From the IMG/VR virus record IMGVR_UViG_3300027797_001510, positions 1 to 21,172 of that record: a stretch of DNA of 21,172 nucleotides; one strand, given 5' to 3'. The first letter of the stretch is position 1, and every line of letters begins with the position of its first letter. Under the pieces are notes generated by a model. The model was not told where the DNA came from. It saw nothing but the letters and a program-made list of their open reading frames with translations, and did not search any database. A program made the translations under genes and the position numbers. This stretch comes from a virus. Positions 4,337 to 18,690 of this stretch are shown here, one piece after another.

Positions 4337-4343
4337 AAACAAC

Positions 4344-6782
4344 ATGTCATCCGAAGAGATCAAGCGGCTCCTAGACTTTAGCACACTTCCTGAGGCTGAT
4401 AATTCCGGAGCCCAAATCGGCGGAGGCATGGGTGGGAGCTGGCGTAGGGCTGGGCCAGAGGAGCTTGCTACGGTGGGCGACGGTGAGGACGTCATGATCA
4501 TGCGTTCTGGCGGCCAGCTTAAGCGTGTAAAATACAACAAAGCCAAAAACAAATTTTTCAGCGAAAAGGAAGTAGTTGAGGCAATGACACCAGGCAATCC
4601 TAGTGGCTTGCCAGTGACGGCTGGTGGCCTTGGTGGGGCTACGATTATGCCTTACACCACGAAGAAGGTCGTCGAAGACGAGGTTGATCCTTCCTCCGTG
4701 GAGGCTTTTGCGACCGGCCCTAGCGCACTTGAGACGGCAAGAGATGCCGCTCTCCGTGCGACCCCTGGTGCTGTTGTCGGGACTGGTGCATTCATAGCTG
4801 GCATGGGCGTCGGCTCTGCGGCCGTCGGCGGTCCACAAACTCCGCTTGGGCTTGCCGTCGGCCTAACGACAGGGATTGCCTCTAGCATGGTGGCATCCGC
4901 CGCCCTGGAGTCTGTTATGACTCACGGATTCAAGGTCACCGAAAGCGAACAAGAGCAGATCGGAAGAATGCTTAACCCCACGGCGGCGGCAATTGGTGAC
5001 TTTGCGCCAACGCTACTTATGTTCCGCCCGTCGGGAAGCGTCCTTAAAGCGGCCGCAGGGATAGAGGTAGCCGGCCTAAGCCAGAAAGCCGCTCTTGGTG
5101 TCGTCGCTAAAGGTGGCCTATTAAACATCGGGATCGCCCAGGCAAGTGCGACGGCTGACGCAATGGTATATGGCAATCGCCAAGATCCTAACCTTTCAAA
5201 CCTGGACGCAATGGGGCGGTCACTCGCATTTGGCGACGTCAACCAAGAGATGGGCGGCGGTCTCGGCAATATCGGTGATCGCCTTGCTCACGCTGGCAAG
5301 GAGCTGGCAATCGGTGGTCTTGCCCTTCACAAGCCATGGGCACTAGGGAAGCCTTTCCACAACGCAGTGCATGGCCGTGACCAGCAGGTCAAGTACAGCG
5401 GCTCCCACACCGAAGACGCCCTGGCTCAACAGCGACTAAATCTTCAGACTAACCAACAGCGTGCAAGGGCGATCATCACGGAGCAAGCCAAGAAGGACGC
5501 AGAGTTTGCCGAGCAGGTCAAAGACGTGCCGCTTACCGAAACTGAAAAGACGGGCGTAGATCAGATCAAGAAGGCCCTTTCTGACGCCTTTGCGAGAAAG
5601 GCTATCAGCAAGGAGACTCACGACGAGGCCCAGCGAATCGCAGATACGCTTGGCTCTGAAATGTTGGAAAACATCCAGCTCCGGCAGATCGGAGGCAAGG
5701 GAAAGCGTGCGACCGTCGAGGGTGAGGCATTTGAAGCTCCGATCATCGACAAGGATGGCAAAGCCACTGAGAACTTCACGAATGCAGTCCTTATTTACGC
5801 CAAGGCAATCGAACGTGGTAACTTCACGACTACGCTTACGCATGAAATTGCACACCCTCTCTTTGACAGCTTGCGTCCTGAGGTTCGCAAAAAGATTCTT
5901 CGTGACCTCGTAAGAGAGCGTGAGAAGTCGAGAAAGTCGGACCGTGTTTTTGACGAAGTCCTCAAGTTCTTTGACGCAAAGAACGACGCAGACTGGCTTA
6001 ATGTCGCAGAAAGGAAATTCAGCGTAGTGGATCAGCGTGCTCTCGTTGAGCACCTCCGGAAGAGCGGCCTAAAAGATTCTGAAATCCAAGACGGGTTCGA
6101 CCGTCTTTTTGTAACGAACCAAAAAGATGGATCTATCAGGCTTAGGAATGAGCTCGCAGGTGAAGACGGCAAAATTTCACGCCGACTCTGGAGCGCACGT
6201 GAGTTCCTCTCGGTTGAGTTTGCACGCTTGATCAAAAATCGTGGCAAGTACGACAGCCAGTGGGGCATCACGGACAAGAGTCTTACCAACTTCCTCACTG
6301 TGGTCCTTCAGACCATGAAGAGGGCCCTGCTCAGGGACACCAGGTTTAGCTCTGCTACCGACGACATCCTTGATCATATCGCAAGCGGAAGCCTAAAGGA
6401 AATTATGCCCGTTGAAAACAAGGGCGTAATCCCCGAGCGTGCATCTGACCCTGCAAGACAGGCCAAGGTTGATGCCGATGTCGGCTCTAAGCCTATCGAC
6501 CCAGAGTCGGTAACCAAGAAGATCGGCGATATCCTTTCTTCCGACGAGTTCAAGGCCAAGGCCGAGAAGCAACTCCAGGAGCGACGCCTAAAGGAGCTCA
6601 CCGAGGAGCCGAAGTCCGGTCCGTTCACACCAAAGGACGAAGAAGAAACCCCTGGAAGGATTGCCGCACTCTTTGGCTCCGAGGGCTGGCTCCGTGAGCA
6701 GACAAAAAGTGGCATGCCAACAGAGGCCGCAGAAGGGCTTAACTACGATGCCGCAGACAGGGATCTTGCCAGGAGAAATCTT
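4344..6782 (+). other. Segment 1 of the giant protein: hydrophobic region and HEIAH zincin-motif domain
   Basis: These are residues 1-813. Residues 142-187 form a long Gly/Ala/Val-rich hydrophobic stretch that could cross or line a membrane. Residues 370-480 are charged helix. HEIAH at 500-504 (bases 5841-5855), in the context TLTHEIAHPLFDSL, fits the HExxH zinc-binding helix of zincin metallopeptidases, a class listed among phage polyvalent domains. I could not assign the third zinc ligand. The rest, to about residue 800, is charged and helical and ends just before the first SEGDA. If the polyprotein is processed, this segment is a candidate protease. Confidence 0.6.
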
Positions 6783-9700
6783 AGCGAAGGCGACGCAGAA
6801 CCCTCCCTTCCAGAAACCTCCAAGGAGGCCCTTAAGAAGCTTGGCATCAAGAACACCGTCATCGGCAACGTGGTCCGCCACTCGAAGATCGGATCTATTC
6901 GCTCCGAGTTCGACAAGGCCAGCACGGCCGGCGAGGTCGCACACATTTTCCGCAACACGTCACAGGCCACCCAGGAGAGCATCCAGGTCCTAGTGACGGA
7001 CAAGGACGGCAATCCGCTTGAGATCTACCGCCACACGCTGAGCGAGCCGGGCTCCTCGACGTTGTTGCCTTCGGTCATGATTTCCCAGGCCCTGTCGGTC
7101 AAGGGAGCCAAGAAGGTGTGGGTATCCCATAACCACCCGTCAATGACGCCTCAGTTCTCTGGATCTGACCTTGGCACCGAGATGAACATCAAGACGATGT
7201 TCAAGGGCACCGGCCTTACCCTGGAAGGCTTCCTGGCTATTGCCGGCGATAAGTACGCATTTATCGGCAAGGAAAGCAAAGGACGTGACCTTGATCGCCA
7301 GGACATCCCTGGTAGCCGATTCCCTGCCACCGGCCGGGAGATCCCAATCATCGAGCGCCGATTCACCCTGCCACGTGGTGAAGACACCGACGTCGTATCA
7401 ACGACAAAGGGCGACACTGACGTCAACCAGCGTATGCTTGTCCAGGAGCTCCTCGGCGGTAAGCCTGGCGTGATCTTCCTGGATCGAAACGACCGTGCCG
7501 TTGGGCACCAGGAGGTCACCGCTGAGCAGATGGCCAAGCTTGGAACCGCCGGGGCTCGCAATCTCCTTGCTGGGTTCTCTCGATCTGGAGGCACCTCTAT
7601 CGTGGTCCACGTTGGCGGCGATACTGTCGCCGACGCCCTTCAGATCCAGGCCGGCGAAAACGTCGCCAACCTGGGCGCCTCTGTCCGTGGAAACGGAAAG
7701 GGCTTCATCAAGAACATCATCGGAACCAACCCCCTTGTCCGCACGCTCGACTCCAAGGGGAGTCGTGTGGCTGGGTTCAAGTCCGAAGGTGACGCCACCG
7801 CATTTGACCGTGGAGAGCCCGAAACCCGTGTCGGCGTAGGGGCTATTAAGCCTCTCCACGCCGCCCCTAAGAGCAACTTCCCCATCATGGCGGACAAGCT
7901 CAAGGACTTTGGCTTTGAGTCGGGATATCTGAATCAGTTCTCTGAGCACGCCATCGTTGGCCAGCTCAAGACTGGTGTCACCCAGGTCCGCACGGCCGGT
8001 GACGTTGCCGCCCTTATCCACGACTACTCCAGCACCCTGGCCCAGGGCCAGACGATGATCCTGATCATCGGTGCCGACGGTAAGCCGATCCAGGTAGGTC
8101 TTCACATGGTGGATTCCAGCATGAACGTAGAGGACAAGGTCGTCATCAAGCCCATGTGGGGCGTCCTGGCTGGCCAGGCGGTGTCAACCCCTGGGGCAAA
8201 GGAGGCCTGGATGGTCCGCATCAATAATGACGTCATTCCCGGCGAGGTAGACGCATCCGTCCAGAATGAGATCGCCCTTAAAAACCTTCTAGAAGGGTCT
8301 GGCATCAACTACCGTGGCCTGGTCGCTGTCGCCGGCCGTCAGTACCGCTCGATCGAGTACACGCCTGGCGTCCAGAATAAGAACGGCGGACACAATCAGT
8401 TCGATAGCACCAACGTGGATTGGATGCCGATCGATGTCCGCCCTGCTACTGGCACCATCCCCCTTACCGAGCGACGCTACTCGACCCGTAGCCAGATCCC
8501 TTACGATACAGGCGTAACGGCGCCAGACCGTCCCATCGGAGCTGAAGATGCCGGCTGGAACCGTAGCGAAAATGCGTCGGCAAAGCGTCTTCGTGAGCAC
8601 CTGGGTGGAGATCCTGGCGTGGTCTTCAAGACCAGCTCGGGCAAGATCGTCGGCACTGTCCACCTTACCCTGGACGAGATGGCCAACATCCGTAACTCGC
8701 CCGCACAAAAGACCCTCCTGGCCATGATGGACCGGGCCGGCGTCAACTGGGGCATGGTCAGCGTTGGTGACGCCCCTAATGACCCTGCGGCCGCACGTGC
8801 TACATCCAATATCAATGCCTTCCTGAAGCAGATGGGCCTTAAGGTTACCGACACCTTCCACAACAACCTGGGTGTCGTCCCTGGTGATCCTGTCGGAACG
8901 TCCGAGTACCGCTGGCAGTCGGAAGGGGATGCGGAAGCTCCGGCCTGGAGGCAGTCCGAACCGAAGGATGCCGGAAGATATGACGAGCGTGCCCGTCCGA
9001 CTCCTTACGCTAATTTTACGAATGCAATGGTAGAAAAGCTCGGCCTAAAGGTTGGGAAAATTGAAATGACCAAGGGTGATGTAAGGACGGTCAGGGATAA
9101 AAACGGAAATGAGGAAATCGTTGGTGCCGGAACCGGCAAAATCTTCGCCAAACATATGGTAGATTTTGAAAATCATTTCGGCTCCGGATTTGAAAAGAGT
9201 CTCTTCCCTGATCAAAACCTCACCAAGGAGCAAGCAGTCGAGCTAATCGTTCAGTCCGCACTTCAAAACGCCAACATTGAAGGATTTTCCAGGATTGGCG
9301 TTGCGAGCAAAGAGAAGGGGTATCGTGAAACACAGGAAAGCAGATTAACCGTTCTTGGTAACTTTAAGGGTGTTCATATGGAGATTGTTTTTGATACGGA
9401 ATCTGGCGTAAAAGGAAGGCCTGACGATGCGAATGTGCTAATGACGGCATATCCGATCGGAAGACAAAGGGTTGATTTTATCAAGCGTTCGGAACGATAC
9501 GTCTCTAACGGAAAGACCGACATGCGGCAAGCGAGGCTCAGTGAGCTACGCAAGAGCCAGGCGTCCTCCGGAATGGAGATGCCGGAAATTGTGAAAAGCG
9601 CAGAAGGTCAGGACGTGGCCGCACCGAGGGTCAACATGATTGCCAAGGAGAACGGTAAAGTCGTAGGCGAGCGCCGTCGTGGCATGAAAGGTCCGACGGC

Positions 9701-12700
9701 CTTCTCCGAAGGCGACGCCCAGGAGTATAACGGCCGTGCGGAAGAAGCCTTCAAGCGTGATCAGATCGTAGGCCCTGAGGCCATCAAGGGAGACTTCCTG
9801 GCCTGGGCCAAGAGCATGAAGGAGCTCGCCAACGAGCACCTGTTCCAGGCCCCCTACCCCCAGAAGTACAAGGACGGATCTGATCGTGAGCGTGACCAGC
9901 AACGCCTCCAGTCCCACCGTGTCATCGACCAGCTGATCGCCAAGCTTGAGCGCCAGAAGGGCTTCAACCCGATGACCCTCAAGCCTGGATTCCTGGACGC
10001 AGTCCGCAAGGTCTCTACCGAAGCCATGATGATCTCCTTTAAGGAGCTCGCACGTGAGGCCGTGAATGTCCATGACGCCACGGGTCTCGACCCTGAGGCC
10101 GGCGGATTCATTCCTCCCAGCGAGAACCTTGACGGCCCCAACGTCGAGAGGGACAAGGCTCACAAGGGCAACCTCGACTGGCACTGGAAGAAGGTGCAGG
10201 GGTACCACAGTCAGTTCATCAAGCACGTCCGCCTCTCGATGGACTCTGGCATGATCGCCCAGCGTACCGGCCTGGAAGTCATCGACATGGCAAACGAGAT
10301 CCGTAGCCGCACGTTCAACCGTGCCGACGGATACGGCGACATGCGTGGCTGGGGTCGTATGTCCGAAGGGGATGCTGAAAACATGCGTATCCCAGGCGGT
10401 GCACGTGATGAAGCCATGAAACGTCGTCCGGCCCGCATGAACAAGACCTACCTTGGCATCGGCCACGGCGGTGATCATGGCGTGCAATACTCAGCCGACG
10501 GACCACGCCCACCCTTTAACCCAGAGAAGGTGTTCCTGTACCACTATGAATCTGAGACCGGCAAGCTAACCGCCAGGAATATTGCCGAGATGGCTGACTC
10601 AGAGGGGATTGAGCGTGAAGACGTTAAGGCTGATTCCTTTGTGCACGGCGACCAGGGTGAGCTCGGCATTGACACCGGCGTTGGAATCAAGCGTGGCGGA
10701 TCTGGCGTCAACGGACGCATTGAGATCGACGACGACAGGGGAATCATCTTCGTTTCCGCCGGCTCAAGCCGTGGGGAACTCAACAACTTCCGCAAGGGAG
10801 ATGCCGGCCAAATGCGTGCTGAAGCCCTCTCGCAGGTCCGCAAATACGTCGAGGCCATGCAGAAAAAAGGCCAGCTACCCAAGGGCTACAAGATCGAAGG
10901 CTACGGGTTCGACCAGAACCGCAGTGTATGGGAGACCCAGGAGCGATTCTCCGAAGGCGATGCCCAGGATAACCGATCTTTCCGTGAGCCCAACCACAAG
11001 GATGAGACCCTGACCAAAAACGGTTTCATCACTAACTATGCCGACGGCAAGTTCATCCGTGGTGCTCAACGTGATCAGACGGTCCTTGAGCTACGCCGGG
11101 AGTACGGAACCAGGTCCAAGGTTTTTGATCCGTCGGTCCTAAAGGACGGAACGTATCGCCTAGACATCACCGATAAGGCGACCGGCCGTGAATACGGGCA
11201 CATCACATTTAGCATGGAGTCTGAGACCAGCGCTTATGTTGTCTCTACGCTTGTACGTGGGGTCCATGAAAACAAGGGCGTCGCCAAGGTTATGTACGCA
11301 GAGCTCGGCGAACGCCTACGTCGTGCTGGCGTCACCGAATTGACCGGGATGGTTGTTGATGAGTACGTCGATCCAAAGACCGGTAAGGTTATCCATCGCC
11401 CGATCAACGCCCGTGAGGCCGTGTTCGGGCTTGGGTCCACAGAGGTCAACCACCGCTACGAAAAAAACATGCACGACGACGATGTATGGATGCACGCCGA
11501 CGTCAGCACTAAGATCAACCCAGCCCGCCGCTTGTCAGAAGGCGACGGACAGCGTGAAGACCCGGCCATGCCGCCCGACACTAACCCCCGCACTAAGGGC
11601 AACGAGCTGGCAAACCACACGAATGCACAGCTAGCCAAGCGTGGGTTTATCTCCAATTACGCCGAGTCAAAGCTCAAGAGCCTTGCTGGCATGAAGGTTG
11701 TTATCGGCCTCCAGCTCGAAGGAGCCAAGCCGCCTGTACCCATTACGGATGCAGGAATTGACTACAACAGAACCAATAACACCTTCCAGGGTAAGATAGA
11801 ATTTACCGGCGAAAACGGCCTTGTCGAGGTTGCCCAGTTCACGTACGTCGTCGAAAATTTTTGGGACAAGGGTGCCCGCAAGGGCTTGCCTGGCGAGACC
11901 GGCGCTAAGCTCGACTGGATTAAGATCAAGCCCCAGTGGCGTGGCCGTGATCTATCTAATGTCATTGTCGCTGAAATCGTTGAGCGGCTTAGACGAGTCC
12001 GCCAGGACCAGGTAGACCTATTTGTCGTAGACCCAGAGGGTCGCCCGATTGCCTCAATCAACCGTATCCTGGGTAAAGAGAACGTTGAAACCTCCTTCAA
12101 CGGAATTGAAGAGACTGACGGACGTGATCAGTTCCGCATTCCCGACCCAAGGTCTGGCACTGGCTTCGTCAGGAAGACCTGGGATGTTACCGGCGAGATC
12201 GACCCCAAGAAGCTTTACTCTGAGGGCGACGACGGAGAGAACATGCGTATCCCAGGCGGAGCCAGGGATGAATTCCAGCGCAAGACGGCCGGCGTCAAGC
12301 GTCAGAAGCCTATCAAGTTCTGGATCGAAGTCGGCCATGCCGACCGTCGGGACGCCGAAGGCGAGCAGAATACCTACCTCTGGTACGCCACTAAAGATGG
12401 AGAAATCGAGGTAGTTAGTGCCGATGAGCTTCGTGGCCTGACTCAGATCGAGCCGGACGACATCCCCACGCACCACGACTGGGAGTCCCATATCGAATAC
12501 GGAAACATCGAAGGCATGTACGGCAAACAGCCGATCACATCTCTCCCGCACGGCCGCATCGACGACCGTGGCGACGTAACCAGGGTGTCCTACATGGACC
12601 ACAAGAACGCCGGCCGGACGGACTACGAGTTCCTTCGTGACGAGATCAAGAAGAAGATCGCAGGGTTCATGCTCAAACAGGCAGACGAAATGCCTGGGTA

Positions 12701-15700
12701 TGACTTTACTAATCCGACAAAGCCCCCTGAGCGTTTCTCTGAAGGGGACGCTGATCAGAACTATGAAGGGCTGGCCTTCTCTGAGAACGACGTCCGTAAG
12801 TACATCTACGGAACGCCGGAAGAAAGAAGGGGGATCTTTGGCTCGCTTCCCGATAAGAAAAACAGGGATGAGTTCAACATCATGTCCGAGTACGTTCGCA
12901 ACAAGGACTTCGAGGACCGTCCTAGAATTCGTGAGCTCCGGGCAAAACAGGAGGCTCGGAGGAAGGAAATCATCGAGAAGCACAGGGCCCAGGGCCACCC
13001 GTATCCTGAGCTGGCGGCGGACCAGGAAATGAATCCTCCGCCAACCGGCCCTGACCCGGAAGCCGAGCTTGATCAGATGCGTCAATCCCGTCGCTCCGAC
13101 AGGGGTAACATGAACTCCGAAGGTGACGCCGAGAACATGCGTATTCCTGGTGGCGCCCGTGACGAAGCCCTCAAGAAGCGTGAAGCCGCACTTCGCCAGA
13201 AGCGTTTCCGCAAGGAGGACTTCGACCTGCTGTACACCGACATCGGTCACGGCGACGAATTCGGCGTCTCTGATAAGATGGAAATCGTCGAGGCATCCAC
13301 ACAACAGTTCCTGTGGTCTTACGACCGCTACGGACAGTTCCACATGCAGAGCCTTCGTGATGCCGTGGATTCCTACAACGAACAGCGGATGCTTAAGTAT
13401 AAGAAGCTCCTGTCCGAGGGGGCTAAGGAAGAGGATATCTCTGACCTAAATGAACCTACGGCGGAAGCCGAGTTTACGCACAACGAATGGGCAAAGAGCC
13501 TTGGCCTCAAGAGCGCCCTTGAGCTCGACTACAAGACTGGCAACGGACGTTTGGACATTACGGTTGATGGCAAAGTCCGCATGAGCTGGGTCGCAAAGAT
13601 CAAGGAAGTAAATGAGCGCCAGATGATGGCCGAACAGATCAAGGAAGAGGCGGCATCGTGGCTCAATAGCAACAAGGGTAGCATCAAGGTCCAACTTACT
13701 AACAAGGTGAAGATGCCCTTCCGTGGCACCGAAGCTGATAAAATCGTAGGCTGGAATTGGGGCTACGGATCCGAAGAAGCTACCGGCCGTCCTCGTCGCT
13801 TCTCTGAAGGCGACGCCGAGAATGGACGCTGGGACAACCAGGAGCGTGCCAAGGGCAAGATCCCGAACGCCAAGATCAGCAACGGCGAAACCGACCTGGG
13901 CTTCATCCTGGACCCAGGTGAAGAGCTCGACTCCAAAGGCCTACGCATCCGCAAGAACACTACCGGCAAAATGTTCTGGGGCTCTATCGGCCATGACCCT
14001 GAGTTCTTCATGATGGATAAGGCCGTCATCGACGCCCTTGGTAAGAACCTGCCTGATAACTTTGATGCCTCCGTTGGGCTCTTCGCTTTTGATAGCTCAA
14101 CTGGTCGTGTAAAGACTACGCAAGAACGCTTGTTTTCATCTCACCTGGAATGGCTAGACCCGAATCAAGCGGTCTTTGGAGACAGTAACTATGGGCGTAT
14201 CCCGGAAAACTACAGCATGATGGGCCGATTCGAGCCCGCCATCATTGGAACCGACGGTGTTGTTATTCGTCGTGGCAGGATCTCCCTGGCCCGAAATGTT
14301 GCCGGCGGAAACTGGGTGTTTGATACGGCTGACTTCAGCCGCTCTGACATCCCGGCTGGCGCCATGGCGAAGATCCGTGAAGCTATCGCAGAGGAATCCA
14401 ACGCCATCCTGGATGGGAAAAACCGAGCCAAGTTCGAGCCCGCCCAGGATACTGCTGGTGACCACTACGACGTCTTCGGATTCGGCATGGCCAAGGAAAA
14501 GGAAGCCATGGGCTTCTCCCAGAAGGACACCGGCCCAATCAAGCTCAACGAGGACGCCAAGACCTACCGTGACCTGGCTGACCGCCCGATCGGCGAAGGC
14601 AAGGACGGCCAGGCTCGCCTCATGAAGATTGGACGCCAGCTTTCCGAAGGTGACGCAGTCGAAGAAAAACCGTTCCGCATCCCGAAGACCGCCGGCAACC
14701 GCACCAACATGCAGTTGGCCAAGGACATCGCTACGGCTCGCTTCTTCACTGGCATCAGCACCAAGGCCCACGACAACGCCGCAGAATTCCCGCTCAGCAA
14801 GACCATGAAGGAGATCGCCAACCTTATCCACGCCAGAGCTGGTGCGGAAGCTGGCGTCACTGGCCTGGATCTCCCGACGGCTATCATGAAGGAACGCACG
14901 AAGCAGATGAACCGCTTCTTTGAGATCATGGACCCGCTTCGCTCGGAGTTCGCCGCAATGGATCGTGACGGCCGTGAACAGGCCTACCAGGAACTGGCTG
15001 ACATGGTCACTGGACTACGCTCCATTGATAGCTCTACCTCAGCTGGCCGTGCCGCCGAAGGCATCAAGGCCATGCTCAAGGAGATGCACGACTACCGCAC
15101 TGCCGCCGGCGAAAAGCTCGGCGAAGTAGAGGACTACTTCCCGGCCGTATATGATTCGATCAACATCTCCGAGAACGCCATGGCCTTCAAGGAAGACGCC
15201 AAACAGGCGTACATGATCGAGCTTAGGGACGCATTCCAGGGCGACGCCCTGGAAGCCGCCGCCGAAAAAGCCGCCCGTGAGCTTACCATGTCCCACATTC
15301 GTGGGGAAGGTGAAGGCACGTTCAACGATCTGTTCGAGTCTGACGCCCCAGCTATGGGGGAGAACTCTTCGATGAAGCGCAAGTTCGGCCCTGAGTCCCA
15401 GCGGATCATGTCGAAGTGGCAGATCAAGGACCCTTACCGAATCATCTCCAGGTACATCGCTGGTGCCACCAAGCGTGCCGAGCTGACCCGCCGCCTGGGC
15501 GACGAAGGCCAGCAGTGGCGCCGCATGGCTCAGGCTCTTGAGAAGGAAGGCGTTTCGTATGAGAAGATCGACGAGATGCGTGACCTCCTGAAGGCCTCCG
15601 TCGGCGTAGGCCTCCGCCAGAACACCAGGGGCGAGCAGACTTTTATCGACCTTATGGGCCTTTACACGGCCGGCTCTGTGATGGGCCGTTCGTTCCTGAA

Positions 15701-16955
15701 TAACATGTTTGAGCCCGCATCCATGGGCATCCGCTCTGGCAATCTGTCCCTTGGCCTCCAGGCCTACGGTCAGACCTGGGCCCGCACGATCCGTAACGCC
15801 GCCCGTGTGCTGAGCGGTGAGCGTATCGACAAGACGTTCTGGGAGCAGTACGCAGAGCACGTCGGCACCATCAGTGCAGACGTCAACGATGCGTGGATGA
15901 ACAGCCACTCCATCGAAGTCGATGGCGACCGTTCTGACCCACGGATCAACTGGCTTACCAGCAAGGTGTACCAGTCCAACCTTCTCCAGATCACCGAGAA
16001 CGCCAAGCTCCAGGCGTCCCACGCTATTGGCTTTAAGTACTTGGTTGGCCTGGCCGAGATGCATCAAGGCAAGAGCTTCATGAACAAGTTTGACGTGACC
16101 GAGTCGGTCAGGTCCAACCTTCGTGAGCTTGGCATCCCTGACGCAGACCACACCCAGTTCGCCCAGTGGATGACCAGGCTTAACTCCCTGGATGACGCCG
16201 GCCGTATGCGTATGCTTACGAGCGGCGGCAAGATGTCCAAGATGTTTGAGACCGCTATCACCAAGTTCTCACTCCAGTCCTCGGTCCGTTCTAACCGTGC
16301 CCATAAGCCCGTCTTCCAGGACGGGCCGATCGGCAAGACGCTGTTCCAGCTCATGAGCTACTCGTACAGCTACGCCGCAGATGTCAACTCCCGCACGTAC
16401 AGCTACGCAAGGAGCGCCCTTAAGTCAGCTCCGGCCGGCAAGTCCTACACTGTCGGAGACCGTATCCGCTTCATGGCTCCACTCATGATGGTGCCTCTTA
16501 GCATCATCGCATACCGTGCCCTGTTCGCTCTAAAGGACGAACTGTACCCAACCGAGTTCAGCGAGAAGCACAAGGACGATCCGGCCTGGACCAAGTGGCT
16601 TAACGCCACCTCCTACGCTGGTGCCTTTGGGCCTAAGGTTGAAATGGCTACTAAGTACGTCATGCGTGACCAGCCTCCTGGCGGTCCCCTGGGCCAGACC
16701 GTTGTCGGTGCCGCACGTGCCGCCAAGACGGCCGTTGTGAACGCCGTCGAAGGCAAGCCCCAGGATAACGCAATCCGCCAGGCCAAGAAAGCATCGGTAT
16801 CTCCGATCAAGGCGGCGGCTGTCATTGGAGCTACGGCGGCACACCCTGCGGCCGGCACGATCGCATCTCAGGTTGCGAACAGCACTGCCTGGTCTAACGC
16901 AATGACCGAAGCCGACAAAACTGAGGCAAAAAAGAAGACCCCAGAGCGGAGATAA
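4344..16955 (+). CDS. Giant modular polyvalent protein (4203 aa) in the gp16 / ejected core protein position
   Basis: I chose ATG 4344 (MSSEEIKRLLDF), seven bases after the previous stop. An in-frame ATG at 4287 would add 19 residues but would overlap the upstream gene by 50 bases. Twelve SEGDA linkers separate about 13 segments. In order they hold: a hydrophobic stretch (142-187) and a zincin motif HEIAH (500-504); a RadC/JAB-like domain with complete JAMM ligands (H929, H931, S939, D942); a degenerate JAB copy; a possible BECR-type nuclease; a helical segment; unknown GH/GRI domain 1; two GNAT-like domains; GH/GRI domain 2; a short charged segment; GH/GRI domains 3 and 4; and a 770-residue helical C-terminus. 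T7 gp16 is 1318 residues, so this is about three times longer. Polyvalent proteins (Iyer, Aravind and colleagues, 2017) carry such domains and are thought to enter the host with phage DNA. Delivery and processing here are inferences. Confidence 0.85.
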   Translation: MSSEEIKRLLDFSTLPEADNSGAQIGGGMGGSWRRAGPEELATVGDGEDVMIMRSGGQLKRVKYNKAKNKFFSEKEVVEAMTPGNPSGLPVTAGGLGGATIMPYTTKKVVEDEVDPSSVEAFATGPSALETARDAALRATPGAVVGTGAFIAGMGVGSAAVGGPQTPLGLAVGLTTGIASSMVASAALESVMTHGFKVTESEQEQIGRMLNPTAAAIGDFAPTLLMFRPSGSVLKAAAGIEVAGLSQKAALGVVAKGGLLNIGIAQASATADAMVYGNRQDPNLSNLDAMGRSLAFGDVNQEMGGGLGNIGDRLAHAGKELAIGGLALHKPWALGKPFHNAVHGRDQQVKYSGSHTEDALAQQRLNLQTNQQRARAIITEQAKKDAEFAEQVKDVPLTETEKTGVDQIKKALSDAFARKAISKETHDEAQRIADTLGSEMLENIQLRQIGGKGKRATVEGEAFEAPIIDKDGKATENFTNAVLIYAKAIERGNFTTTLTHEIAHPLFDSLRPEVRKKILRDLVREREKSRKSDRVFDEVLKFFDAKNDADWLNVAERKFSVVDQRALVEHLRKSGLKDSEIQDGFDRLFVTNQKDGSIRLRNELAGEDGKISRRLWSAREFLSVEFARLIKNRGKYDSQWGITDKSLTNFLTVVLQTMKRALLRDTRFSSATDDILDHIASGSLKEIMPVENKGVIPERASDPARQAKVDADVGSKPIDPESVTKKIGDILSSDEFKAKAEKQLQERRLKELTEEPKSGPFTPKDEEETPGRIAALFGSEGWLREQTKSGMPTEAAEGLNYDAADRDLARRNLSEGDAEPSLPETSKEALKKLGIKNTVIGNVVRHSKIGSIRSEFDKASTAGEVAHIFRNTSQATQESIQVLVTDKDGNPLEIYRHTLSEPGSSTLLPSVMISQALSVKGAKKVWVSHNHPSMTPQFSGSDLGTEMNIKTMFKGTGLTLEGFLAIAGDKYAFIGKESKGRDLDRQDIPGSRFPATGREIPIIERRFTLPRGEDTDVVSTTKGDTDVNQRMLVQELLGGKPGVIFLDRNDRAVGHQEVTAEQMAKLGTAGARNLLAGFSRSGGTSIVVHVGGDTVADALQIQAGENVANLGASVRGNGKGFIKNIIGTNPLVRTLDSKGSRVAGFKSEGDATAFDRGEPETRVGVGAIKPLHAAPKSNFPIMADKLKDFGFESGYLNQFSEHAIVGQLKTGVTQVRTAGDVAALIHDYSSTLAQGQTMILIIGADGKPIQVGLHMVDSSMNVEDKVVIKPMWGVLAGQAVSTPGAKEAWMVRINNDVIPGEVDASVQNEIALKNLLEGSGINYRGLVAVAGRQYRSIEYTPGVQNKNGGHNQFDSTNVDWMPIDVRPATGTIPLTERRYSTRSQIPYDTGVTAPDRPIGAEDAGWNRSENASAKRLREHLGGDPGVVFKTSSGKIVGTVHLTLDEMANIRNSPAQKTLLAMMDRAGVNWGMVSVGDAPNDPAAARATSNINAFLKQMGLKVTDTFHNNLGVVPGDPVGTSEYRWQSEGDAEAPAWRQSEPKDAGRYDERARPTPYANFTNAMVEKLGLKVGKIEMTKGDVRTVRDKNGNEEIVGAGTGKIFAKHMVDFENHFGSGFEKSLFPDQNLTKEQAVELIVQSALQNANIEGFSRIGVASKEKGYRETQESRLTVLGNFKGVHMEIVFDTESGVKGRPDDANVLMTAYPIGRQRVDFIKRSERYVSNGKTDMRQARLSELRKSQASSGMEMPEIVKSAEGQDVAAPRVNMIAKENGKVVGERRRGMKGPTAFSEGDAQEYNGRAEEAFKRDQIVGPEAIKGDFLAWAKSMKELANEHLFQAPYPQKYKDGSDRERDQQRLQSHRVIDQLIAKLERQKGFNPMTLKPGFLDAVRKVSTEAMMISFKELAREAVNVHDATGLDPEAGGFIPPSENLDGPNVERDKAHKGNLDWHWKKVQGYHSQFIKHVRLSMDSGMIAQRTGLEVIDMANEIRSRTFNRADGYGDMRGWGRMSEGDAENMRIPGGARDEAMKRRPARMNKTYLGIGHGGDHGVQYSADGPRPPFNPEKVFLYHYESETGKLTARNIAEMADSEGIEREDVKADSFVHGDQGELGIDTGVGIKRGGSGVNGRIEIDDDRGIIFVSAGSSRGELNNFRKGDAGQMRAEALSQVRKYVEAMQKKGQLPKGYKIEGYGFDQNRSVWETQERFSEGDAQDNRSFREPNHKDETLTKNGFITNYADGKFIRGAQRDQTVLELRREYGTRSKVFDPSVLKDGTYRLDITDKATGREYGHITFSMESETSAYVVSTLVRGVHENKGVAKVMYAELGERLRRAGVTELTGMVVDEYVDPKTGKVIHRPINAREAVFGLGSTEVNHRYEKNMHDDDVWMHADVSTKINPARRLSEGDGQREDPAMPPDTNPRTKGNELANHTNAQLAKRGFISNYAESKLKSLAGMKVVIGLQLEGAKPPVPITDAGIDYNRTNNTFQGKIEFTGENGLVEVAQFTYVVENFWDKGARKGLPGETGAKLDWIKIKPQWRGRDLSNVIVAEIVERLRRVRQDQVDLFVVDPEGRPIASINRILGKENVETSFNGIEETDGRDQFRIPDPRSGTGFVRKTWDVTGEIDPKKLYSEGDDGENMRIPGGARDEFQRKTAGVKRQKPIKFWIEVGHADRRDAEGEQNTYLWYATKDGEIEVVSADELRGLTQIEPDDIPTHHDWESHIEYGNIEGMYGKQPITSLPHGRIDDRGDVTRVSYMDHKNAGRTDYEFLRDEIKKKIAGFMLKQADEMPGYDFTNPTKPPERFSEGDADQNYEGLAFSENDVRKYIYGTPEERRGIFGSLPDKKNRDEFNIMSEYVRNKDFEDRPRIRELRAKQEARRKEIIEKHRAQGHPYPELAADQEMNPPPTGPDPEAELDQMRQSRRSDRGNMNSEGDAENMRIPGGARDEALKKREAALRQKRFRKEDFDLLYTDIGHGDEFGVSDKMEIVEASTQQFLWSYDRYGQFHMQSLRDAVDSYNEQRMLKYKKLLSEGAKEEDISDLNEPTAEAEFTHNEWAKSLGLKSALELDYKTGNGRLDITVDGKVRMSWVAKIKEVNERQMMAEQIKEEAASWLNSNKGSIKVQLTNKVKMPFRGTEADKIVGWNWGYGSEEATGRPRRFSEGDAENGRWDNQERAKGKIPNAKISNGETDLGFILDPGEELDSKGLRIRKNTTGKMFWGSIGHDPEFFMMDKAVIDALGKNLPDNFDASVGLFAFDSSTGRVKTTQERLFSSHLEWLDPNQAVFGDSNYGRIPENYSMMGRFEPAIIGTDGVVIRRGRISLARNVAGGNWVFDTADFSRSDIPAGAMAKIREAIAEESNAILDGKNRAKFEPAQDTAGDHYDVFGFGMAKEKEAMGFSQKDTGPIKLNEDAKTYRDLADRPIGEGKDGQARLMKIGRQLSEGDAVEEKPFRIPKTAGNRTNMQLAKDIATARFFTGISTKAHDNAAEFPLSKTMKEIANLIHARAGAEAGVTGLDLPTAIMKERTKQMNRFFEIMDPLRSEFAAMDRDGREQAYQELADMVTGLRSIDSSTSAGRAAEGIKAMLKEMHDYRTAAGEKLGEVEDYFPAVYDSINISENAMAFKEDAKQAYMIELRDAFQGDALEAAAEKAARELTMSHIRGEGEGTFNDLFESDAPAMGENSSMKRKFGPESQRIMSKWQIKDPYRIISRYIAGATKRAELTRRLGDEGQQWRRMAQALEKEGVSYEKIDEMRDLLKASVGVGLRQNTRGEQTFIDLMGLYTAGSVMGRSFLNNMFEPASMGIRSGNLSLGLQAYGQTWARTIRNAARVLSGERIDKTFWEQYAEHVGTISADVNDAWMNSHSIEVDGDRSDPRINWLTSKVYQSNLLQITENAKLQASHAIGFKYLVGLAEMHQGKSFMNKFDVTESVRSNLRELGIPDADHTQFAQWMTRLNSLDDAGRMRMLTSGGKMSKMFETAITKFSLQSSVRSNRAHKPVFQDGPIGKTLFQLMSYSYSYAADVNSRTYSYARSALKSAPAGKSYTVGDRIRFMAPLMMVPLSIIAYRALFALKDELYPTEFSEKHKDDPAWTKWLNATSYAGAFGPKVEMATKYVMRDQPPGGPLGQTVVGAARAAKTAVVNAVEGKPQDNAIRQAKKASVSPIKAAAVIGATAAHPAAGTIASQVANSTAWSNAMTEADKTEAKKKTPERR
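6783..7781 (+). other. Segment 2: RadC/JAB-type metallopeptidase-like domain plus a JAB-like partner domain
   Basis: These are residues 814-1146. The first half has the RadC-type JAB layout: E878 in QESIQVLVTDKDG, then WVSHNHPSMTPQFSGSD, which is a full H-x-H-x7-S-x-x-D JAMM signature (H929, H931, S939, D942). All predicted zinc and catalytic residues are present. RadC proteins have no settled biochemical role, while other JAMM proteins are isopeptidases or peptidases. The second half (GGKPGVIFLDRNDRAVGHQE) resembles the opening of a RadC fold but has VHVGGD where HNHP would be, so it is probably a non-catalytic relative. Confidence 0.75.
7782..8918 (+). other. Segment 3: degenerate duplicate of the JAB segment
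   Basis: These are residues 1147-1525. The segment parallels segment 2 from end to end: VRTAGDVAALIHDYSSTLAQ against ASTAGEVAHIFRNTSQATQ, ILIIGADGKPIQVGLHMVD against VLVTDKDGNPLEIYRHTLS, and GTIPLTERRYS against REIPIIERRFT. The partner half is also repeated (GGDPGVVFKTSSGKIVG). The metal site is lost: HNHP becomes INND at residues 1293-1296, and SxxD is gone. The open frame and kept core pattern argue for selection for a non-catalytic role, such as binding or regulation. Confidence 0.7.
8919..9704 (+). other. Segment 4: possible BECR-fold (Barnase-EndoU-ColicinE5/D-RelE type) nuclease domain
   Basis: These are residues 1526-1787. KIEMTKGDVRTVRDK is followed by GKIFAKHMVDFENHFG (H1604) and later by VHMEIVFDTESG and NVLMTAYPIGR (1699-1708). 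A Lys-His element early and a Thr-Ala-Tyr-Pro strand late recall BECR-type phage and toxin nucleases, where the last strand is often TAYP. Sampled blocks in this stretch are 40-43% G+C (9061-9180, 9361-9420), against 63% at 9781-9840, which suggests a recently acquired domain. The nuclease call is tentative. Confidence 0.45.
9705..10361 (+). other. Segment 5: helical domain of unknown function
   Basis: These are residues 1788-2006. The segment is charged and predicted mostly helical, with IKGDFLAWAKSMKELANEHLF, VIDQLIAKLERQKGF and an aromatic/histidine stretch DWHWKKVQGYHSQFIKHVRL. I recognise no catalytic signature. It is bounded by SEGDA motifs on both sides and returns to high G+C after the AT-rich segment 4. 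Confidence 0.5.
10362..10949 (+). other. Segment 6: unknown 'GH/GRI' domain, copy 1
   Basis: These are residues 2007-2202. The segment opens with SEGDAENMRIPGGARDE and then has GIGHGGDHGV (H2041), FLYHYESETGKL, a His in FVHGDQ, and GRIEIDDDRGIIFVS (from residue 2124), followed by a closing helix. The same order of motifs recurs in segments 9, 11 and 12. I do not recognise the family. Confidence 0.6.
10950..11534 (+). other. Segment 7: GNAT-like domain, copy 1
   Basis: These are residues 2203-2397. The segment opens with SEGDAQDN and a lead-in LTKNGFITNYADGKF shared with segment 8. HITFSMESETSAYVVSTLV forms strands, then ENKGVAKVMYAELGERLRRAGV (from about residue 2309) resembles the acetyl-CoA-binding loop and helix of GNAT proteins. 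The loop is not a perfect R/Q-x-x-G-x-G/A, so activity is uncertain. Confidence 0.5.
11535..12218 (+). other. Segment 8: GNAT-like domain, copy 2
   Basis: These are residues 2398-2625. The lead-in LAKRGFISNYAESKL matches segment 7. LDWIKIKPQWRGRDLSNVIV (RGRD from residue 2533) is a better GNAT motif A than in segment 7, followed by EIVERLRR, a strand DLFVVD and SINRILGKENVETSF, which fits the last GNAT elements. The two tandem copies are diverged paralogs. Targets are unknown. Confidence 0.55.
12219..12737 (+). other. Segment 9: unknown 'GH/GRI' domain, copy 2
   Basis: These are residues 2626-2798. The segment opens SEGDDGENMRIPGGARDE, so the linker has one extra residue. It carries IEVGHADRRD (H2665), YLWYATKDGEIEV, THHDWESHI and HGRIDDRGDVTRVS (GRID from residue 2737), then a closing helix RDEIKKKIAGFML. 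The motif order matches copy 1 while the rest is strongly diverged. Confidence 0.6.
12738..13115 (+). other. Segment 10: short charged helical spacer
   Basis: These are residues 2799-2924. This is the shortest SEGDA-bounded piece, about 126 residues. It is rich in Arg, Glu and Lys (RIRELRAKQEARRKEIIEKH) and ends in a Pro-rich, acidic tail. No enzyme signature is visible. It may be a linker or small binding module. Confidence 0.5.
13116..13802 (+). other. Segment 11: unknown 'GH/GRI' domain, copy 3
   Basis: These are residues 2925-3153. The opening SEGDAENMRIPGGARDEA is identical in protein to copy 1 but differs at 10 of 17 codons, all silently. Then come TDIGHGDEFGV (H2969), QFLWSYDRYGQFHM, FTHNEWAKSL and GRLDITVDGKVRMS (from residue 3068), with a closing helix EQIKEEAASWL. 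An SEGA at about 13410 inside the domain is not a linker. Confidence 0.6.
13803..14642 (+). other. Segment 12: unknown 'GH/GRI' domain, copy 4
   Basis: These are residues 3154-3433. The opening is SEGDAENGRWDN, without the RIPGG part. GSIGHDPEFF (H3217), VGLFAFDSSTGRV, SSHLEWLD and MGRFEPAIIGTDGVVIR (from residue 3293) keep the motif order of the other three copies. It is the longest and most diverged copy, with extra sequence before the closing helix. Confidence 0.55.
14643..16955 (+). other. Segment 13: C-terminal helical region of large polyvalent protein type
   Basis: These are residues 3434-4203. The segment is helical throughout. EVEDYFPAVYDS, FLNNMFEPASMGIRSG, and ITKFSLQSSVRSNRAHKP followed by LFQLMSYSYSYAADVNSRT match, from memory, the recurrent C-terminal pattern of large phage polyvalent proteins. 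A hydrophobic stretch PLMMVPLSIIAYRALFAL near residue 4050 could insert in a membrane. After the last SEGDA there are no more linkers, so this would be one 770-residue product if processing occurs. A scaffold or ejection-channel role is inferred. Confidence 0.55.
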
Positions 16956-16990: not shown

Positions 16991-17116
16991 ATGTCCTACG
17001 TCATCACCGCCGCAGTCTTCACGCTCATCGGATTCATCGGAGGGTTGCTCGCCTTCCGAAAGAACCAGGCAAAGATCAACGATCTCGAAAAGAAGGCTGA
17101 AGACCTTCTGAAGTAA
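16991..17116 (+). CDS. 41-residue single-pass membrane peptide
   Basis: The ATG at 16991 has an AAAGGA seven bases upstream, one of the few plausible Shine-Dalgarno sites in the window, and the stop TAA abuts the next ATG (TAAATG). The peptide is MSYVITAAVFTLIGFIGGLL followed by a basic and then charged helical tail. There is one membrane span (residues 4-21) and a cytoplasmic-type coiled tail with Lys, Glu and Asp. It sits immediately before the lipoprotein and may be a lysis accessory such as a small holin or antiholin, or an inner-membrane spanin subunit. The role is inferred from position only. Confidence 0.6.
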   Translation: MSYVITAAVFTLIGFIGGLLAFRKNQAKINDLEKKAEDLLK

Positions 17117-17803
17117 ATGCGTGTTGCGACCATCATCCTTATGGTCGCATTGGCCGGTTGCTCAACGAGCGACCAGGCCCAGCCCCCATCCCCTAAGGTA
17201 GTATCCCTGGAGACCGTAGGCAAGAGCCTGGATCAGATCGATCTGGCAGTTGCCGCAAGTGTCCAGGTGGCACGTGAGATGAACAAGGCCGGCAAACCAG
17301 ACAAGGTCGAAGGCGAGCTATCCGTCGCCGCCGCCAACCTTCCTAAGGCTGACCCTCCCTCTGTCGCCCTGGCACGCCAGCGGGCCGACAATGCTACCGC
17401 ATCTGAATACGAGGACCAGCGGAAGAAGGCCCAGGCTAGGGTGTCTGAGCTAGAGAACGCCTGGATCGAGCTCGAAGACCAGGCCAGGGAAAAGGACGAT
17501 CAGATCAGGGAGCTCAAGCTCCAGGTTGAATCTGGGAAGAAAGACATCTTTACCGTAACTGGCGCCGGCCTCGTTGTGATCGGAGGGCTGGCATGGGCAT
17601 TTGCCGGCTGGAAAATGGGAGCTCCATTACTCTTGGCCGGTGCCTTCTGCGGAGCTATCCCGCATATCCTGGATAGCAGTGCGTTCATGTGGATCGCCGG
17701 CTTCACGCTCCTTGCGTGCTGTGGCATCTTCGTCTGGTGGCTCTTCGACAAAGCGAGGGACAACATCAATGAAACGCCCCAGAAAGAAATTCAAAATCGT
17801 TGA
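17117..17803 (+). CDS. Lipoprotein with coiled coil and C-terminal membrane segments (u-spanin-like)
   Basis: This 228-residue protein begins with a signal peptide and lipobox, VALAGC, with the lipidated Cys at residue 15. Residues 20-140 are polar, with a coiled coil around 100-140 (RVSELENAWIELEDQ). Residues 145-165, about 168-184 and 190-210 are hydrophobic, and the end is a charged tail. A lipoprotein N-terminus plus a C-terminal membrane anchor is the layout of unimolecular spanins (T1 gp11 type), which join and fuse the inner and outer membranes in the last step of Gram-negative lysis. Classical u-spanins have one C-terminal span; here there may be three, which is unusual. Neighbouring a holin-like gene supports a lysis role. 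The last 35 bases overlap the next gene. Confidence 0.6.
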   Translation: MRVATIILMVALAGCSTSDQAQPPSPKVVSLETVGKSLDQIDLAVAASVQVAREMNKAGKPDKVEGELSVAAANLPKADPPSVALARQRADNATASEYEDQRKKAQARVSELENAWIELEDQAREKDDQIRELKLQVESGKKDIFTVTGAGLVVIGGLAWAFAGWKMGAPLLLAGAFCGAIPHILDSSAFMWIAGFTLLACCGIFVWWLFDKARDNINETPQKEIQNR

Positions 17804-18026
17804 AAGCGATCTGAGGAAAGACAGAGATGACGGACAGCTATACCATGTCGGATCAAAAAAGTTCACCATCGTTATCGATAAGAACCATCGCTCAGAAAAA
17901 GAGAGACTTGATACGGTTGTGCATGAGTGCCTCCACGTTGGAGATCTTCGGGCCTCAGAACGGAAAGTCCGTCACATGGCCGCCATTATTACAGAAGCCC
18001 TCTGGCGACAAGGCTACCGACGATGA
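17769..18026 (+). CDS. Small phage zincin-like protein (HECLH motif)
   Basis: I chose ATG 17769, giving 85 residues; the frame is open upstream to 17601 but that would lie deep inside the lipoprotein gene. The protein has a basic N-terminus (MKRPRKKFKI), a strand pair (GQLYHVGSKKFTIVID), then KERLDTVVHECLHVGD with HECLH at residues 52-56, and a closing helix ending LWRQGYR. This matches a common small phage family with a T-x-x-H-E-x-x-H helix followed by L-W-x-x-G-Y-R. HExxH suggests zinc binding and possible peptidase activity; substrates are unknown. Asp59 or a later Glu might complete the site. Its TGA overlaps the next ATG (ATGA), so it is probably coupled to the nuclease gene. Confidence 0.7.
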   Translation: MKRPRKKFKIVESDLRKDRDDGQLYHVGSKKFTIVIDKNHRSEKERLDTVVHECLHVGDLRASERKVRHMAAIITEALWRQGYRR

Positions 18027-18367
18027 ACAGGCAACAGCGTTACCGACTGAAGAATCCCAAGATTCCGATCATCGGCAACGCTCGTCAGCGGGCGAAGTTT
18101 TTCGGAGTGCCGTGCACGCTGAAGCCGGCGGACTTCGAGATCCCGGAGTTCTGCCCAGTACTGGGAATCAGGCTAACACATGGATCGAACAAGAGATCCA
18201 CTCCCAGCTCTCCGAGCTTGGACAGATTGATCCCATCCAAGGGATACGTGAAGGGCAACGTCACGATCATCAGCAAGCTAGCCAACAGCATCAAGAGCTC
18301 GGCGACATCGGCGGAGCAGGTGCGCCAGGTGTACATGTGGCTTAAGAAGAAATTAAAAAACAAATGA
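18023..18367 (+). CDS. HNH-like endonuclease (SLDR...GYVxGNV type)
   Basis: This 114-residue protein starts at an ATGA overlap with the zincin gene; the longer open frame from 17927 lies inside that gene. It has a basic N-terminus, then EFCPVLGIRLT, and the motif SLDRLIPSKGYVKGNVTIIS followed by KLANSIKSSAT. This is the pattern of small phage HNH-like nucleases, in which Asp-Arg replaces the first His and the Asn of GNV and the Asn of LANSIK fill the other positions. Only one Cys of the usual zinc knuckle is visible. It may process branched or packaged DNA. Its stop overlaps the holin start (ATGA). Confidence 0.7.
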   Translation: MNRQQRYRLKNPKIPIIGNARQRAKFFGVPCTLKPADFEIPEFCPVLGIRLTHGSNKRSTPSSPSLDRLIPSKGYVKGNVTIISKLANSIKSSATSAEQVRQVYMWLKKKLKNK

Positions 18368-18690
18368 CTCCTCCAATCCAGCCACCAGAAGATCCCAGCG
18401 TCCTATTTAGCGACGGCGTAGTAGCGGCCTCGATCGGCTTGCTGGCCGGCATTGCCAGGGTCATGCTTAGCCATGAGAAGCATTCCTTTGGGTATGTGGC
18501 CAGGCGTACTGCCGTGGCTGGCATCGTAGGCTTCTTTTCTTCCATGCTTGTGGGCGAATATGTGACGTCCATCAGGCTTCAGTTCTGCTGTGTTGGTGCC
18601 ATATCTTACGCCGCACCAGAGGTTTGTGACTTTGTTTTGAGCGCCGTTAGAAGCGGGGCCCTGGCCAAGAACTTTTTCAAAAGATCCTAA
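18364..18690 (+). CDS. Holin-like membrane protein
   Basis: This 108-residue protein starts in an ATGA overlap with the HNH gene. It has three likely membrane helices: about residues 18-36 (VVAASIGLLAGIARVML), 46-66 (RRTAVAGIVGFFSSMLVGEY) and 72-94 (CVGAISYAAPEVCDFVL), with a short basic C-terminus (KNFFKRS). Length, three spans, the GxLAGIAR element and the YAAPEV element recall phage holins that form lesions in the inner membrane to release an endolysin. It closes the lysis cassette and is followed by the inverted repeat at 18695-18728. No endolysin is visible in the window, so its partner must lie elsewhere. Confidence 0.65.
   Translation: MTPPIQPPEDPSVLFSDGVVAASIGLLAGIARVMLSHEKHSFGYVARRTAVAGIVGFFSSMLVGEYVTSIRLQFCCVGAISYAAPEVCDFVLSAVRSGALAKNFFKRS

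Follow-up and report, generated by a model that had tools for sequence, protein, structure and literature searches.

The 228-residue lipoprotein encoded in an uncultured-virus record of 21,172 bases (the window, meaning the whole stretch of DNA analyzed here) probably acts as a single-chain, u-spanin-like disruptor of the outer membrane, of a helical, three-span variety, in an uncultured phage; judging from sequence, we give this reading a probability of roughly 0.57. It is favored by the lipobox cysteine and three C-terminal spans common to all 39 full-length members of the family and by loop and tail charges that indicate an N-out/C-in orientation. It is favored also by the holin-like neighbor in all 39 loci with sufficient flank, the homologues of an exported lysozyme in relatives, and the size of the periplasmic part (128–154 residues). 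The lack of Asp at position +2, a nearly complete relative (G009) that has no other convincing lipoprotein, and a terminase, in the contig of L005, that is nearest to those of phages of Gram-negative hosts point in the same direction. Against it stand the absence of a significant match to spanin families, the all-helical periplasmic part, the extra periplasmic Cys in 13 of the 39 members, the eight members off the lipobox pattern, a K/R-rich stretch before the first span, the conservation of a helical domain, a distant gene of i-spanin layout in G009, and three fragmentary contigs (G000, G002, and G004) in which no SLT-type lysozyme was found. A u-spanin-like protein had been proposed at this position in an earlier note, and the anatomy, the charge pattern, and the holin-linked position all support that proposal.

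Anatomy and conservation of the lipoprotein

A 41-aa ORF ends, stop codon included, immediately ahead of the gene, whose product runs from a short basic start through a hydrophobic stretch with the lipobox ALAGC and a Pro-containing linker to a helical domain, a heptad-bearing helix, three membrane spans, and a charged tail (Table 1). Its Cys15 matches the lipobox pattern and its hydrophobic peaks correspond to the segments, about three between residues 145 and 210, that the earlier note had described. The combination of lipobox and three spans is not due to chance. A lipobox with at least three late peaks appeared in 2 of 5000 composition shuffles of the window protein. Among 836 ORFs of at least 100 aa, read in six frames from 12 phage stretches, the lipobox pattern, which overlooked a family member in L085, was found in 15, and only two of these, both family members, also had at least two C-terminal peaks.

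Table 1. Features of the lipoprotein gene and its cassette, in window coordinates.
Feature	Position	Strand	Basis
41-aa peptide, first cassette gene; N-terminal span 4–20, short charged tail	16991–17116	+	phrog_3879 (unknown function), E 4.5e-5
228-aa lipoprotein, u-spanin-like candidate	17117–17803	+	ATG start
Lipoprotein signal and lipobox LAGC, Cys15, Ser at +2	17117–17161	+	Lipobox pattern, aligned Cys
Residues 31–92, predicted helical bundle, strongly conserved	17207–17392	+	AlphaFold2 pLDDT block means 81–90
Residues 93–143, heptad helix continuing unbroken into span 1	17393–17545	+	Shuffles, AlphaFold2 helix 95–163
Residues 144–206, three membrane spans (144–160, 169–185, 190–206), N-out/C-in by charge	17546–17734	+	Hydrophobic peaks, charges
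85-aa HECLH mini-protein, phage metallo-protease/M78-like; overlaps lipoprotein gene end	17769–18026	+	phrog_87, E 0.019
108-aa LydA-like holin candidate, peaks 19–35, 51–67, 76–92	18364–18690	+	Pfam PF16083, phrog_785

Uncultured-virus contigs were searched both with single sequences and with alignments that grew as the search went on. The 53 loci obtained, together with the window and L019 and after removal of 11 duplicates, gave 44 distinct proteins, 39 of them full length (225–266 aa). Near-alike sequences are common, 21 of the 36 aligned rows being left at below 80% identity, and identity to the window protein ranges in this 36-row alignment from 97% down to 29%. In L030 (5780–6118 and 5920–6588), and also in L081, the family gene extends over two overlapping frames, as in a disrupted copy or through a sequencing error. 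An N-terminal Cys (at 13–30) and exactly three C-terminal peaks (at a cut of 1.2) were found in every full-length member; because members were collected by homology and start codons were picked to place the Cys at 13–26 where possible, this uniform layout speaks of constraint, not of independent origin.

The lipobox pattern, which is PROSITE-style, was passed by 31 full-length members; the other eight read LVGC with a short n-region (four), FQTC (two), LQTC (one), or LLGC with a Cys at −4 (one), Thr thus preceding the Cys in three of them. The column of Cys15 holds Cys in all 35 rows of the 36-row alignment that have a letter there. Asp at +2 is the retention signal of Escherichia coli, and none of the 39 members carries it. 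The extra periplasmic cysteines of other members are not present in the window protein. The length of the periplasmic part across the 39 members is near i-spanin size.

Conservation is unevenly spread along the protein. The invariant columns of the 36-row alignment (P61, V64, E67, A71, L75, P76, and R89) all bear on the helical domain, and among the 21 rows below 80% identity the mean identity is 0.52 in loop 2, 0.51 in the helical domain, 0.46 in span 1, and 0.43 in span 2, as against 0.35 in the signal, 0.33 in both the coiled coil and span 3, 0.28 in the linker, and 0.22 in the tail. Spans 1 and 2 are therefore conserved above the coiled coil and span 3 is not, and the higher identity of the spans is partly due to the small alphabet that membrane segments use. 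The strong conservation of residues 31–92 suggests that this domain may have a partner beyond its role in bridging. In the window protein the heptad of residues 93–143 is strong (0 of 2000 shuffles were equally good), so that the coiled coil seen by the earlier note holds there; across the family it reaches p ≤ 0.05 in 18 of 36 rows, and a classical coiled coil is for that reason not equally clear in all members.

These conservation values bear on a different reading, in which the protein is an inner-membrane lipoprotein that times lysis, both of its anchors residing in the inner membrane in an antiholin-like manner. The three-span block would pair with the holin or with the 41-aa peptide, and the periplasmic domain would sense murein or the exported lysozyme. 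A helical domain conserved as in a partner-binding module, the raised conservation of loop 2 and of the first two spans (though not of span 3), and the constant adjacency of a holin-like gene would all suit such a timer. It would, however, leave these phages, as seen in G009, without a visible disruptor of the outer membrane, and the E. coli retention signal is missing from the family, so that we consider it unlikely.

The orientation of the u-spanin-like candidate is suggested by the charges flanking its spans. Summed over the 39 members, the loop between spans 1 and 2 has 39 K/R and 0 D/E, the loop between spans 2 and 3 has 1 K/R and 44 D/E, and the 20 residues past span 3 have 126 K/R and 94 D/E. 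The loop and tail charges thus argue for an N-terminal part in the periplasm and a C-terminus in the cytoplasm, and the pattern fits an N-out/C-in topology, while the 15 residues ahead of span 1 (127 K/R and 108 D/E) fit the positive-inside rule poorly. Class I holins likewise have three spans and an N-out/C-in topology. It is conceivable on this ground that a spanin has been fused to a holin-type, class-I-like three-span block, so that one protein would both permeabilize the inner membrane and bring about its fusion with the outer membrane; that spans 1 and 2, together with loop 2, are conserved beyond the need of an anchor would agree with this, except that the small hydrophobic alphabet alone raises identity. 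However, a comparison of 12 such C-terminal blocks with holin families gave no match (best holin E 1.4), and each of the 39 loci examined also has a distinct holin-like gene, which makes such a fusion very unlikely. The version of it put forward in the earlier note, a u-spanin joined to a small holin-like hairpin, is not supported by the block either, which has three spans rather than a hairpin, and the fusion is a weaker reading than that of a u-spanin-like protein.

An AlphaFold2 model based on the 36-row alignment, which superseded an earlier model built on 15 rows (pLDDT 64.5), is all-helical, with a mean pLDDT of 76.5 and a pTM of 0.42. The predicted helices comprise residues 31–57, 61–74, and 80–92 in the conserved domain, an arm at 95–163 that runs into span 1, and two further helices at 165–185 and 190–217. 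Foldseek matched the model to A0A6J5MZD0 (E 3.5e-13, 42% identity) and A0A6J5MD62 (E 2.1e-5, 19% identity), uncharacterized proteins from uncultured Caudovirales phages that are probably members of the family; since their TM-scores are only 0.37 and 0.44, respectively, the matches rest on sequence and local shape. Against the PDB, Foldseek with the lipoprotein model found nothing significant (best E 2.3), and the best hit of a sequence search with the lipoprotein was a synthetic helix (E 0.044).

The cassette of the holin candidate and putative exported lysozymes

Neighboring genes were counted with profiles derived from these same cassettes. In all 39 loci whose downstream flank extends to 1.5 kb or more, the lipoprotein gene is followed by a holin-like gene that ends no more than 0.9 kb from it. 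A homologue of the 41-aa peptide precedes the lipoprotein in 31 of the 41 loci where the flank suffices and was undetected in the other 10; a two-span protein of ∼108–118 aa directly follows the holin in 34 of 39 loci (e.g., L009 7307–7633 and L020 2109–2453); and a mini-protein with an HExxH motif neighbors the lipoprotein in 16 of 39. Both companions named in the earlier note, the 41-residue membrane peptide with its one hydrophobic segment and the nearby holin-like gene, here found to be LydA-like, were recovered in the window (Table 1). The cassette gene is called a holin candidate here because the label rests on modest family matches: its Pfam PF16083 scores, 19.7 bits for the window gene and 24.7 bits for the L020 relative, are both under the cut-off of 28.4, and holin-like genes matched the PHROG holin families 785 (window, E 0.0064) and 6384, while database searches with the holin-like proteins gave no convincing match. 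The two-span protein, which is possibly an antiholin, went undetected in the window, L031, and L033, and the two copies scanned matched no PHROG and no Pfam family convincingly enough to name them.

The linkage to a holin-like gene in all 39 loci also weighs against a role in superinfection exclusion or in another envelope function unrelated to lysis, in which case the holin would be nearby by chance. Some phage lipoproteins do act in superinfection exclusion, but the multi-span C-terminus of the present protein adds to the difficulty, and we find this explanation scarcely credible.

Other genes in and around the cassette vary. The HExxH mini-protein is 85–96 aa long and overlaps the lipoprotein gene in several loci (L006 6581–6871 and L009 6686–6973), the L006 copy scoring above the cut-off of Pfam M78 (IrrE-like); in L064, L077, and L078 it is located after the holin instead. 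An HNH/endonuclease-VII-like gene at ∼18023–18367 (phrog_3322, E 5.1e-28), between the lipoprotein and the holin, is shared by L002 and L003 but missing from L004 and L005, and is a candidate mobile insertion in the cassette. Most of the window is taken up by a single ORF of 4222 aa (4287–16955), in which linker motifs such as SEGDAENMRIPGGARDE recur between modules and HExxH-like and HxHP motifs, the latter presumably JAB/RadC-like, were noticed by eye; it resembles a giant mosaic ejection protein.

A transglycosylase- or lysozyme-like protein of SLT type is encoded 3–5 kb downstream in 15 of 39 loci, within the flank available, and a homologue was found in 10 of the 16 contigs searched. The SLT-type search found none in the window, G002, or G004, all of which are fragments. 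These small proteins (∼139–153 aa; L020 4817–5245, L064 9615–10049, and L009 10163–10579) lie 3–5 kb from the holin and carry signal-like N-termini, the start codon with the most hydrophobic N-terminus having been chosen. Their Pfam SLT matches of 17.0 and 17.9 bits are under the cut-off of 21.3, and the transglycosylase family phrog_4067 was matched by the lysozymes of L020 (E 2.3e-8) and G009 (E 0.0078). Relatives that possess the gene would seem to use a Sec-exported endolysin encoded outside the holin cassette.

Whether another spanin could serve these phages was considered in G009, a contig of 37,113 bases whose 354-bp end repeat (6 mismatches) indicates that the genome is close to complete. 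Its cassette is complete, with a 43-aa peptide and the lipoprotein, HExxH, holin-like, and two-span genes. A scan for the lipobox pattern in G009 found no convincing lipoprotein besides the family member, the other matches being 49–123 aa long and located over longer ORFs. Outside the cassette, ∼1.5 kb from the lysozyme gene, G009 encodes a 92-aa protein of i-spanin layout (L087 15348–15626), with a basic start, one N-in span, and ∼55 residues after it, so that a distant two-component partner is conceivable in this phage and the elimination is imperfect. An early hydrophobic peak is seen as well in an 88-aa ORF of G009 (L087 4547–4813).

The 92-aa gene would enter a two-component arrangement in which the lipoprotein is the o-spanin and the part of the i-spanin is played by the 41-aa peptide, by the two-span protein encoded after the holin, or by such a distant gene. 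As to the peptide, its frequent place directly upstream and the weak matches of its L009 counterpart to spanin-type PHROGs (E 0.02 and 0.08; a database search with the same peptide gave no convincing match, best E 1) would be in keeping with that role. It nevertheless makes an improbable i-spanin, because in the window it has no basic residue before its span, FRK after it, and ∼20 residues left, which are too few to cross the periplasm, and across loci only ∼20–35 residues follow the span, with basic residues right after it; nor was it detected in every locus. Inspection of the cassette revealed no plausible i-spanin, and the distant candidate is confined to G009, its product having no homologue in the other family loci examined (phmmer, E ≤ 0.05) and no spanin-type PHROG match. 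Since o-spanins as described have no spans and the lipoprotein has three, the two-component arrangement appears highly improbable.

Relatives, hosts, and known spanins

The cultivated terminases nearest to that of the L005 contig come from phages that infect Microcystis, Rhizobium, and Pseudanabaena, which are diderm hosts; the 1851 terminase records matched also include many from phages of Gram-positive hosts, at lower identity. None of the three nearest phages, those of Microcystis, Rhizobium, and Pseudanabaena, has an ORF of at least 100 aa that combines the lipobox pattern with at least two C-terminal spans. Pattern-based scans of 84,980 species genomes, which required short conserved peptides and which relatives may escape, found no relative of the lipoprotein and hence no host for the window phage. 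With six family queries, INPHARED (50,697 phage records) likewise gave no convincing relative: the window and L080 had no match, for the window at E ≤ 1, and the best E values were 0.06 for L019, 0.2 for L009 (in the signal-peptide region), 0.5 for L064, and 9 for L036.

PHROG and family-library searches gave the lipoprotein no significant match to known spanin families. The matches obtained were weak and fell in the coiled coil, the signal, or the spans: phrog_2619 (unknown function) was matched by five of six members (best E 3.3e-4), phrog_1193 (“hemolysin”) by L036 (E 3.1e-4), and phrog_1544 by L064 (E 5.4e-4), and there were matches to UPF0242 (E 5.1e-5) and TIGR04211 (E 8.9e-5, far below its cut-off). 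A PHROG called Rz-like spanin was weakly matched by two of six members (best E 0.022) and another by L064 (E 0.036), which we take as hints only.

Two u-spanins, T1 gp11 and KP34 gp54, were run as controls. Each is 133–134 aa long, has a signal and one C-terminal span, and matches phrog_1804, which the window protein does not. They share with it the N-terminal lipobox, the periplasmic middle part, the C-terminal membrane anchor, a nearby holin, and a basic C-terminal tail, whereas the window family is longer (225–266 aa) and has three spans instead of one. In the available text of Kongari et al. 2018 (PMC6139136), T1-family u-spanins have a beta-rich periplasmic domain, while the window protein is predicted to be all-helical; none of the 58 known u-spanins there has a periplasmic Cys, which is an observation, not a stated requirement; and the search criteria did not consider other topologies. 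The accessible parts of a review (PMC7830690) give u-spanins one transmembrane domain and call it an anchor only, and there, as in PMC6139136, their mode of action is described as little understood. KP34-like u-spanins are described, in the portion of PMC4411677 available, with two transmembrane domains at their ends, which in our control run of KP34 gp54 correspond to the signal and the one C-terminal span. As far as the text of a survey of lytic proteins (PMC12596118) could be consulted, a transmembrane region and a lipid box define a u-spanin, and the lipoprotein of the window family would be counted as one under that definition. The available portions of the open-licence literature, including PMC6139136, PMC12596118, PMC7830690, PMC8776804, PMC8705779, and PMC4411677, contain no three-span u-spanin.

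The likeness to lambda Rz/Rz1 consists in the helical periplasmic part (Rz) and in a Pro-rich stretch after the lipidated Cys in several members (Rz1), but the window protein is one chain rather than two and has three C-terminal spans rather than one N-terminal span. LydA-type and class I holins resemble it in the three-span, N-out/C-in block; unlike LydA-type holins, it has a periplasmic domain of ∼130 aa following a lipoprotein signal, shows no family match, and stands next to a separate LydA-like gene. Both topological marks of a u-spanin, the lipobox and the C-terminal N-out/C-in anchor, are found in the window protein, but with three spans against the published one. Because the number of spans, the secondary structure, and the length differ and the T1 family is not matched, we call the protein u-spanin-like rather than a proven member, and it would be a new variant of u-spanin if its function is confirmed.

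Proposed mode of action and meaning

The u-spanin-like protein may work as follows. It would be exported by Sec and lipidated at Cys15, as the conserved lipobox suggests, and its lipid end would then be sorted to the outer membrane while the three spans remain lodged in the inner membrane and the tail faces the cytoplasm, the topology being that indicated by the charges. Outer-membrane sorting of the lipid end is the weakest step of the proposal. The helical domain and the coiled coil would cross the periplasm through the murein mesh, until the adjacent holin and the exported lysozyme, whose genes are seen in relatives and whose functions are presumed, clear the murein block. Following the published spanin model, the bridge so freed might fold back or oligomerize and thereby fuse both membranes.

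A more ambitious version, quite unlikely in our estimation, is that the protein performs two envelope steps in lysis, the three-span block permeabilizing or destabilizing the inner membrane before the lipid-anchored arm fuses the membranes. If true, diverse uncultured phages would share a conserved holin-spanin hybrid or multi-span fusogen. Should this family, with its three spans and its helical arm, prove to consist of spanins, spanin design would be wider than has been described. Annotators would gain a pattern to look for in phages at present recorded as having no spanin, and it could be tested whether a spanin's membrane part serves as more than an anchor.
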